A stretch of DNA of 64,000 nucleotides from NCBI RefSeq assembly GCF_000971195.1, contig NZ_BBLZ01000005.1, positions 1-64,000 of the forward strand, in the 5' to 3' direction. A model generated the notes under the pieces. It searched no databases. It was not told where the DNA came from and saw only the letters and a program-made list of their open reading frames with translations. The stretch's first letter is position 1; every line of letters starts with the position of its first letter. Both the position numbers and the translations under genes were made by a program. This document shows positions 55,135 to 57,987 of the stretch, one piece after another. Origin of the DNA: Demequina soli. GTDB taxonomy: Bacteria; Actinomycetota; Actinomycetes; Actinomycetales; Demequinaceae.

Positions 55135-56511
55135 CTAGAGGTCCTGCGCCATGTCCGTGAAGTGGGCGAAGTCCTTGCGGAACGCGACCGCGATGGTGTC
55201 GGTGGGTCCGGCACGGTGCTTGGCCACGATGAAGTCGGCCTCGCCGGGACGGTTCTCGCGGTCGTAGGCGTCCTCGCGGTGCAGCAGGATCACGATGTCG
55301 GCGTCCTGCTCGATCGAGCCGGACTCACGCATGTCGGAGAGCATCGGCTTCTTGTCGCCGCGCTGCTCGGGGCCACGGTTGAGCTGCGAGATCGCGATGA
55401 CCGGGACCTCGATCTCCTTCGCGAGCAGCTTGAGCGCGCGCGAGAACTCGGAGACCTCCTGCTGACGCGACTCGACGCGGCGGCCGGACGTCATGAGCTG
55501 GAGGTAGTCGAGCACCACCAGCTGGAGGTCGTGCTGCTGCTTGAGGCGGCGGCACTTCGCTCGGATCTCCATGAGCGACATGTTCGGCGAGTCGTCGATG
55601 TACAGCGGCGCGTTCGCGACCGACGCGGCGGTCTGGGCGAGCCGCTCCCAGTCGTTGGGCCCCATCGGGCCCTTGGTGAGCTTCGACAGCTTCACGCCGG
55701 CCTCGGCGGACAGCATGCGCTTCGCGATCTCCTCGCGGCTCATCTCGAGGGAGAAGATGACGGCGGCCTTCTTGTGGTGGATCGCGCACGAGCGGGCGAT
55801 GTCGAGGCCCAGCGTCGACTTGCCGATCGCGGGTCGCGCCGCGATGACGATCATCTGGCCGGCCTGCAGGCCGCCCGTGAGGTCGTCGAGCTCGCGGAAG
55901 CCCGTGGGCACGCCGAGCATGCTGCCGTCGCGCGACGACGCGGCGTCGACCTCCTCGAGCGTGCGCTCCATGATCTCGCTGAGCGCCTGGTAGTCCTCGG
56001 AGCTGCGGCGCTCCGTGACGGCGAAGATCTCCGCGGAGGCGGCATCGACGATCTGGTCGACCTCCGCGCCCTCGCCGTCGTAGCCGAGGCCCGTGATGCG
56101 CGTGCCCGCCTCGACGAGCTTGCGCAGGATCGCCTGCTCGCGGACGATGCGCGCGTAGTAGCCGGCGGATGCCGCGGACGGCACCCCCGAGATGAGCGTG
56201 TGCAGGTACTCGGCGCCGCCGACGCGCGTGAGGATGCCCTGGCGCTGCAGCTCCGCGCTCACCGTGAGCGCGTCGACCGGGTCGCCGGCGTTGTAGAGCT
56301 TCACGCAGACGTCGAAGATCTGCTCGTGCGCCGGCTTGTAGAAGTCGTCGGAGCGGACCGCCTCGACGACGTCCGCCATCGCGTCCTTCGACAGCAGCAT
56401 CGAGCCCAGCACGCTCTGCTCCGCCTCGATGTTCTGCGGCGGCAGACGATCGAAGGTGCGGGGCGATCCCCCTTCGGAGCCGTACGCGGCCTCGAGCTCG
56501 TCGACGGACAT
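55135..56511 (-). CDS. dnaB: Replicative DNA helicase
   Basis: 458 residues, ATG 56511 with AGGGAG upstream. N-terminal DnaG-interacting domain (RLPPQNIEAEQSVLGSMLL), linker, and RecA-type motor with Walker A K231 in ARPAIGKST, MSREEIAKRM, Walker B VVLDYLQLM, and AISQLNRGPEQR. No intein or insertion. It forms the hexameric helicase at the replication fork. It is read away from a 520-base gap rich in DnaA-box-like words and follows rplI in the usual actinobacterial order rpsF-ssb-rpsR-rplI-dnaB, here interrupted by a DUF559 locus. Confidence 0.97.
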   Translation of the reverse strand: MSVDELEAAYGSEGGSPRTFDRLPPQNIEAEQSVLGSMLLSKDAMADVVEAVRSDDFYKPAHEQIFDVCVKLYNAGDPVDALTVSAELQRQGILTRVGGAEYLHTLISGVPSAASAGYYARIVREQAILRKLVEAGTRITGLGYDGEGAEVDQIVDAASAEIFAVTERRSSEDYQALSEIMERTLEEVDAASSRDGSMLGVPTGFRELDDLTGGLQAGQMIVIAARPAIGKSTLGLDIARSCAIHHKKAAVIFSLEMSREEIAKRMLSAEAGVKLSKLTKGPMGPNDWERLAQTAASVANAPLYIDDSPNMSLMEIRAKCRRLKQQHDLQLVVLDYLQLMTSGRRVESRQQEVSEFSRALKLLAKEIEVPVIAISQLNRGPEQRGDKKPMLSDMRESGSIEQDADIVILLHREDAYDRENRPGEADFIVAKHRAGPTDTIAVAFRKDFAHFTDMAQDL

Positions 56512-56621
56512 GCGGCTCTCCCTTCGTTCGTGAACAGTCTCCCGCCGCCCTCAGACAGTCGGGTCAGGCTCGCGAATCTAGGCCCGGATCCACCGGCCGA
56601 CAAATCGGCTCGCGGGCCATC

Positions 56622-56796
56622 CGTGGATGACCCGTGGAGAACTGGGGATGACCCGTGGATGGAGCGCGTCGCGCCGTGGACAACCATGCGTGGCGCATGT
56701 GGACAAGGATGTGGATGAATCCGCGAATAGGTCGGCTATGGGCGTTCTACGTCGCCATTTGAGCGGGACGATGCTGTGGACAAGTCGGGTGGACAA
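56622..56796 (+). promoter_or_regulatory. Cluster of DnaA-box-like sequences upstream of dnaB
   Basis: All on the plus strand: TGTGGACAA at 56698-56706 and 56775-56783 (exact to the high-GC actinobacterial box TTGTCCACA), CGTGGACAA 56675-56683, TGTGGATGA 56710-56718, GGTGGACAA 56788-56796, and weaker CGTGGATGA 56622-56630 and CGTGGATGG 56654-56662. Confidence 0.6.
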
Positions 56797-56854
56797 GTCC
56801 CCGGCGTGTCGCGACCGGCGTGTCGTGCTTCCGGGTGCCAATTCTCGTCGGAGG

Positions 56855-56877
56855 GGTGCCGGGCTGGGCCCGGCACC
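56855..56877. terminator. GC hairpin beside the first REP-like element
   Basis: GGTGCCGGG (56855-56863) pairs with CCCGGCACC (56869-56877) around CTGGG; abuts the inverted-repeat element that starts at 56876. Confidence 0.55.
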
Positions 56878-56940
56878 GCCAACCTTGAGCTTCCGCCTCG
56901 CAAAGCGCGGACGCGCGGCAGCGGATCCTCACAGTTGTCG
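56876..56940. repeat. REP-like inverted-repeat element, copy 1
   Basis: 65 bases: a reverse arm at 56876-56894 (core CAACCTTGAG) and a forward arm at 56923-56940 (GGATCCTCACAGTTGTCG). The interior contains CGCAAAGCG. It is the most diverged copy. Confidence 0.7.
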
Positions 56941-56980
56941 TGGGCGCGGATGAGGCCGGCGGCGACGCGCCCGCCTCCTC

Positions 56981-57045
56981 CCGCAACTGTGATGATCCAC
57001 CCCGCAAACGGCGGTGGTCTCCGCTGCGCGATCTCAAAGTTGCGG
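56981..57045. repeat. REP-like inverted-repeat element, copy 2
   Basis: 65 bases: reverse arm 56981-56998 (CCGCAACTGTGATGATCC), forward arm 57028-57045 (GCGATCTCAAAGTTGCGG). The forward arm supplies the last codons (Pro-Gln-Leu) and the stop codon of the DUF559 gene. Confidence 0.75.
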
Positions 57046-57987
57046 CGAGGCGAGCCCGGGCGACTGCTGGGCGAGCCTCGTCGCGACGGCCGCGTCGAGC
57101 ATCGTCCGGCACCAGTCCGGGCGGTCGCGCAGGACGGTGTAGTCGAAGTGCAGCGTCACCAGCCCGAGAACCGCCAGCTCGGCGTCGCGCTCGTTGTCGC
57201 GCAGACGGGCCTCGCGACCGCCATGCGCCGCCTCGCTGTCGCACTCGACCACCACGCGCCCCTCGCGGTGGAGCAGGTCCGCGCGACGCACGCCGCGGGG
57301 CGTGCGGATCTCCACCTGGCGCTCGAGGACCTGGTCGCACGGACGCGTGAAGACCTCGCGCCGCGCCATCACCTCGCCCGGAGACGTCGCGCCGTCGAGG
57401 AACTCGCCGAGGATCCCGTCCAGCTCGCCGCGGTCGGGGACGCGCCTCACCTTGGCGGCGGCCGCGATCGCCTGCTTAGGGGTCACGACCTTCAGCCACA
57501 GCGCCTCGTAGAGAAGGCCCTTGCGCTTGTCGGTCTCCGCGCGGATCCATGCGTCGATCAGGGCGTCCTCGCGGGTGAGCAGGTCGCAGTCCTCGCGCCG
57601 TGAGGTCAGCGGCGGCCGCTCGCGGAAGCGCATCCGCAGCCACGGCGCCGACGGGCGGTGCCGTCCGGGCGCCACCGCGGCCTCCACCTGGGCAGGCTCG
57701 GGGAGGCGCGGCTCGTACAGATGGAGCGCCGACCGGCCCGCGATCACGGCGCGGCCGGCCGTGGCGGTGTCGACCGCGTGGCACCGGACCTCATGGAGGG
57801 TCGCGGTCGCGGCCGGCGCGTAGATCCCCGGAAGGACACGCACCAGCGCGCCGGCAGCGACCGCGCGCTACAGCACGTGCTCGCCCAGCGCCTTCGCGAG
57901 CGCCGCCCGCGGCAGGGTCCGCCGCCCGTCGGTCATGGAGGCGAGCACGCGGGCGAGGCGCTCATCGCACGTGCGGTGGGTGGACAT
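57034..57987 (-). pseudogene. DUF559/Vsr-like endonuclease with AbiEi-type N-terminal wHTH, interrupted by an amber codon
   Basis: The full frame runs from ATG 57987 (or ATG 57996) to the stop at 57034-57036, about 317 codons. A single in-frame TAG at 57868-57870 falls inside the N-terminal winged helix: the sequence before it (RTLPRAALAKALGEHVL) and after it (RAVAAGALVRVLPGIYAP) read as one continuous AbiEi_4-like domain. An internal GTG (57843) could start a 269-residue product. The C-terminal DUF559 nuclease core looks intact: RRADLLHREGRVVVECD gives the Asp and Glu-x-Asp of a PD-(D/E)xK fold, followed by LRDNERDAELAVLG. Two inverted-repeat elements lie on each side. It is probably inactive or strongly reduced, unless the stop is suppressed or is a base-calling error. 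Confidence 0.8.

Follow-up and report, generated by a model that had tools for sequence, protein, structure and literature searches.

Putative DnaA boxes arrayed upstream of dnaB in Demequina soli and their conservation among actinomycetes

What is the functional significance of a row of DnaA boxes upstream of a replicative helicase gene? The question is raised by the 64-kb window analysed here, which is part of contig C12 (165,941 bases) of the Demequina soli genome (3.0 Mb, 16 contigs). The product of dnaB in this window scores 532 bits against TIGR00665 (cut-off 385), and its closest relatives are found in Demequina species, with up to 89% identity. Beyond the intergenic region 5' of dnaB lies a gene without assigned function (57034-57843) and, further out, rplI, rpsR and rpsF. 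A sequence-only reading of the locus had proposed a cluster of DnaA boxes at 56622-56796, acting in DnaA titration, in control of dnaB or as a secondary origin-like element. The position proved correct, and control of dnaB is the best supported of the three options. Here we compute the boxes, their single orientation, their phasing, a promoter-like block and their conservation with dnaB, and we weigh the functions that the array may have.

The array and a promoter-like pair upstream of dnaB

The array contains eight DnaA-box-like 9-mers (Table 1). Seven matches to NGTGGAYRA had been claimed, but the pattern fits six (boxes 1 and 4 to 8); the two others, CGTGGAGAA (56633) and CGTGGATGG (56654), are each one base off. 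The claims that two boxes are exact and that all lie on one strand both hold: TGTGGACAA is found at 56698 and 56775, and all eight 9-mers read TTGTCCACN-like on the dnaB strand. By the look of the sequence, the boxes also appear to be of the high-GC actinobacterial type, as had been suggested.

Table 1. The dnaB gene and features of its upstream region, in positions of the window
Feature	Position	Strand	Sequence or basis
dnaB, replicative DNA helicase, 458 aa, without intein	55135..56511	-	TIGR00665, Pfam DnaB_C and DnaB
Intergenic region 5' of dnaB, 522 bp, GC 0.67, contains box array	56512..57033	.	
Probable -10 hexamer	56575..56580	-	TAGATT; TAC/TAG-ATT-CGCG block in 12-species alignment
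Probable -35 hexamer, 17 bp ahead of -10	56598..56603	-	TTGTCG; CGATTTG-like block kept in alignment
DnaA box 1 (putative)	56622..56630	-	TCATCCACG on dnaB strand
Weak DnaA box 2 (putative)	56633..56641	-	TTCTCCACG, one base off
Weak DnaA box 3 (putative)	56654..56662	-	CCATCCACG, one base off
DnaA box 4 (putative)	56675..56683	-	TTGTCCACG
DnaA box 5 (putative)	56698..56706	-	TTGTCCACA, consensus
DnaA box 6 (putative)	56710..56718	-	TCATCCACA
DnaA box 7 (putative)	56775..56783	-	TTGTCCACA, consensus
DnaA box 8 (putative)	56788..56796	-	TTGTCCACC

The steps between boxes are 11-13 and 21-23 bp, or about one or two helical turns, with one additional gap of 65 bp. With the period scanned from 10.2 to 11.2 bp, helical phasing of the eight boxes reaches R = 0.89 at 11.05 bp, a value equalled by 0.8% of random placements when the scan is allowed for. 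For single other species, the corresponding fractions are 0.4 to 1.0% (six or seven boxes), 1.5% (five boxes) and 9% (a four-box layout), and these fractions are not independent of one another because the species are relatives. The single-strand fold of the array is no better than that of shuffles (z -0.72).

In an alignment of 12 species, the boxes are conserved blocks amid otherwise variable DNA, and a further conserved block, CGATTTG...CTACATTCGCG, lies between the array and the start codon. By eye, and given its conservation, we read this block as a probable -35 and -10. The promoter-like pair is located 64-92 bp before dnaB, and the array ends 18 bp upstream of the -35 hexamer; relative to the likely transcription start, the array would extend from about -55 to -230. 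The TTGTCG/TAGATT pair scores 8 of 12 in a consensus promoter scan, which at its threshold of 9 of 12 reports no promoter in the region. A terminator scan of the dnaB upstream region found none.

Clustering in the genome and conservation with dnaB

It is the clustering of the boxes that is unusual, not their total. Genome-wide over-abundance of DnaA boxes is rejected, since TTGTCCAC has 51 matches in the 3.0-Mb genome and a reversed control word has 53. Similarly, the window alone contains seven one-mismatch matches to TTGTCCACA where 4.1 are expected, a number that is reached by 12 of 100 shuffles and is not unusual. In contrast, four of the 51 TTGTCCAC sites lie inside 121 bp at the array, and 51 sites placed at random 20,000 times never had four inside 121 bp. 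The only other pair of TTGTCCAC sites less than 200 bp apart (C12:119942-119968) is near crgA. A search of the whole genome with the pair pattern GTGGAYRAN{0,30}GTGGAYRA gives five matches, three at the array and two at C12:119883-119949, and contig C12 has three runs of boxes with gaps of no more than 100 bp: the array (six boxes), 92527-92557, between dnaA and dnaN (two), and 119883-119968 (four). Similar box density is not found at many ordinary intergenic sites, there being one other comparable direct-repeat cluster genome-wide. Several boxes lie close 5' of dnaB, above chance, as expected of a DnaA-controlled dnaB promoter.

Smaller groups of boxes were seen at other places. Outside the window, three DnaA-box-like 9-mers are located between rsmG-like and parA-like genes (C12:87012-87076; L008 13012-13076), and similar boxes occur at the matching rsmG-like/parA-like place in L163 and L165, with the genes named by eye from their translations. 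A further conserved box pair, GTGGACAAAATCTGTGGATAA or similar, adjoins a copper-resistance-D-like gene (again named by eye) in other Demequina (L166, L167, L170); this type of pair was not found by the pair-pattern search of the D. soli genome.

The box clusters are conserved with dnaB. Our Demequina-family set comprises loci from 30 of 43 genomes, and 40 of the 42 other genomes share the genus label of our own. Within 600 bp 5' of dnaB, all 30 loci have at least one forward box, and 23 have two or more that point the same way. One forward box only is present in the Demequina species L025, L026, L029, L032, L033, L038 and L039. Spacings of 11-12, 21, 23 and 65 bp recur between species of the family.

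For a wider count, we counted boxes up to 500 bp 5' of dnaB and compared them with 400 permuted motifs in each of four locus sets; dnaB upstream regions from 20 of 198 and 20 of 158 genomes were hand-picked, for spread over families and for a match reaching the start of the DnaB protein, and are not random samples. The Demequinaceae set (25 loci) has 74 boxes against a permuted mean of 1.9 (forward:reverse 64:10), with at least two boxes in 16 loci. The corresponding numbers are 117 against 2.9 in 55 other named loci (85:32; at least two boxes in 38), 40 against 1.1 in 20 other-order loci (31:9; at least two in 14), and 27 against 1.5 in 20 other same-order loci (at least two in 8), where orientation is near-balanced (15:12). 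In each of the four sets, the observed count was matched by none of the 400 permuted motifs. Two families, labelled f7 and f11 by the search tool, are exceptions: within 600 bp, four f7 loci have two boxes in all, and three f11 loci have none. Because boxes are few or absent in these families, DnaA control of dnaB would not be universal.

Such clusters are not conserved upstream of two control genes. For rpsF, there are 8 boxes in 29 loci, and no locus has two or more; one of 30 loci was left out because a contig end was too near. For recA, there are 15 boxes in 27 loci, with at least two boxes in 2 of 27, after 3 of 30 loci were left out for the same reason; recA is not a clean negative control, since one box is present in many genomes, but it was kept in the count. 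In our own genome, rpsF is only 3.2 kb upstream of dnaB. Hence, we reject the view that proximity to the origin is enough for a gene to have such boxes. At recA itself (L231-L259), 12 of 27 actinomycete loci have one DnaA-like box in the coding direction (one locus has two), ~110-176 bp before the gene. In most cases, the box precedes a TTGTCGGTG...TAGCGT-like promoter by 20-50 bp; this promoter we take to be of the PafBC/RecA-NDp type.

Possible functions of the array

The nearest known relative of the array has been measured in mycobacteria. According to excerpts of Hicks et al. 2020 (PMC7738170), IDAP-seq identified five DnaA regions in M. tuberculosis, one of them "upstream of dnaB", and ChIP-seq detected homologous regions in M. 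smegmatis. Furthermore, a DnaA I282T mutant had reduced binding at the dnaB promoter, and dnaB was uniquely under-expressed, an expression result that comes from one mutant (same excerpts). In both systems, DnaA boxes lie 5' of dnaB, and very few other places in the genome are of this kind. They differ in the evidence: binding in vitro, ChIP and the expression of one mutant for mycobacteria, and sequence alone for the eight helically phased, single-direction boxes of Demequina. In Caulobacter crescentus, too, dnaB is reported to be a DnaA-regulon gene, with predicted boxes for DnaA at its 5' side and DnaA-dependent expression (Hottes et al. 2005, via excerpts of the review PMC8203912). Caulobacter belongs to a distant phylum, and its dnaB-DnaA link is probably independent or very old.

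We consider it likely that DnaA bound to the array regulates the dnaB promoter, and that it does so by activation. Control of dnaB is best supported because the promoter-like pair adjoins the array, because the array is conserved with dnaB, and because binding and an effect on expression are described for mycobacteria (PMC7738170, excerpts). We infer DnaA binding in Demequina, its activating sign and its cell-cycle timing as follows. DnaA monomers would bind the eight same-direction boxes, and the spacing of one or two turns would place these on one face of the helix, making cooperative binding possible. The bound row would end 18 bp upstream of the -35 hexamer, a position suited to aiding RNA polymerase, and active DnaA would thus raise the supply of helicase as the cell nears initiation. 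A DnaA reservoir effect may accompany control of dnaB.

An alternative explanation is that the array is mainly a DnaA reservoir that tunes or delays initiation at oriC, by titration, as for the DnaA-box clusters of B. subtilis, or by a change of nucleotide state, as for datA and DARS in E. coli, with dnaB merely adjacent. We found no description of datA or DARS in actinobacteria in the literature searched. The array is dense, same-direction and close to the origin, and would be doubled early in replication. Moreover, the genes flanking its sister cluster at crgA converge, so of the two clusters at least this one is no promoter element for a neighbouring gene. In B. subtilis, box clusters outside oriC are able to hold DnaA and affect the timing of initiation (Okumura et al. 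2012, via excerpts of the review PMC5295017), but their function was shown by deleting all six clusters, whereas the Demequina array is tied to a dnaB promoter. A pure reservoir would have no need to stay beside the dnaB start, as the boxes do through much of the class, and the published mycobacterial mutant ties binding to dnaB expression (PMC7738170, excerpts). We therefore regard a reservoir as an unlikely main role for the array.

DnaA bound to the array could instead repress dnaB; in E. coli, ATP-DnaA is a repressor of dnaA and, when abundant, of nrdAB. A single promoter can be activated or repressed by DnaA (PMC8203912, excerpts), and DnaA filaments could extend from box 1 over the -35 hexamer. 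However, no strong box overlaps the core promoter, the nearest ending 18 bp upstream of the -35, and activation is suggested by the under-expression of dnaB in the M. tuberculosis mutant whose binding is reduced (PMC7738170, excerpts). Repression by this route seems quite improbable.

The true origin had been expected to be not far away, and dnaA is indeed 34 kb from the array, at C12:90347-91633. Although the array is near dnaB and origin-proximal, we reject it as a secondary or former origin, a reading to which we give almost no credence: its boxes all point in one direction, there is no AT-rich unwinding stretch at the dnaB site (lowest 50-bp GC 0.52, compared with 0.48 at dnaA-dnaN), the cumulative GC skew of contig C12 has its broad minimum at 109 kb, on the dnaA side, rather than at 56 kb, and a normal dnaA-dnaN origin region, with boxes on both strands, is present at ~92.5-92.8 kb.

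A second putative box cluster, 3' of crgA

The second putative DnaA-box cluster (C12:119883-119968; region to 120123, L005 1501-1741) is located outside the window and 3' of crgA; on the side away from crgA, it is followed by a rhomboid gene and, next, a cyclophilin gene. The identity of crgA was confirmed by Pfam, and a CrgA protein match was obtained at all 30 Demequina crgA loci. In our own genome, the rhomboid gene and crgA converge on the cluster, which is hence the promoter of neither. At least one box lies inside the 600 bp downstream of crgA in 26 of the 30 Demequina loci. Class-wide, 28 crgA loci (2 of 30 were left out because a contig end was too near) show an enrichment 3' of the gene: 30 boxes fall in the first 500 bp downstream (14 kb in total), whereas the 500 bp upstream contain 5 and the other 56 kb contain 28, and 17 of the 28 loci have at least one box downstream. 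Beside the crgA cluster, at L005 1640-1735, GGGGATAACTAC is repeated and has an inverted copy; this sequence is outside the DnaA-box pattern used.

The mycobacterial gene Rv0011c is presumably crgA. The Rv0010c-Rv0011c region is among the five DnaA regions of mycobacteria and is described, in the excerpts of PMC7738170, as having no obvious counterpart in other species and an unexplained consequence. Judged by its boxes and neighbouring genes, the putative crgA cluster of D. soli matches this site in place. This suggests, as a lead, that the mycobacterial site may be old and may act on DnaA rather than on its neighbours. Since the Demequina site lies between convergent genes, a role in handling DnaA would fit it, rather than control of a promoter. 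More tentatively, a few old DnaA sites near the origin but outside oriC may be common to actinomycetes: one, a phased array, would drive dnaB, and another, 3' of crgA, would handle DnaA, as a reservoir or in nucleotide exchange; we put this forward as possible but somewhat doubtful.

The mycobacterial relative of the array is known already (PMC7738170, excerpts). The layout of the array, its class-wide spread and its pairing with the crgA site are new as far as the literature searched, which covered few subscription journals and in which we found no paper describing either site as conserved across the class. Control by DnaA of the gene encoding the helicase has so far been measured in mycobacteria and proposed for Caulobacter; among actinomycetes it is probably widespread, showing as boxes 5' of dnaB. 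The dnaB and crgA sites represent a small conserved set of loci for testing DnaA control in actinobacteria, and a DnaA-handling role would, if true, explain the Rv0010c-Rv0011c site of mycobacteria.
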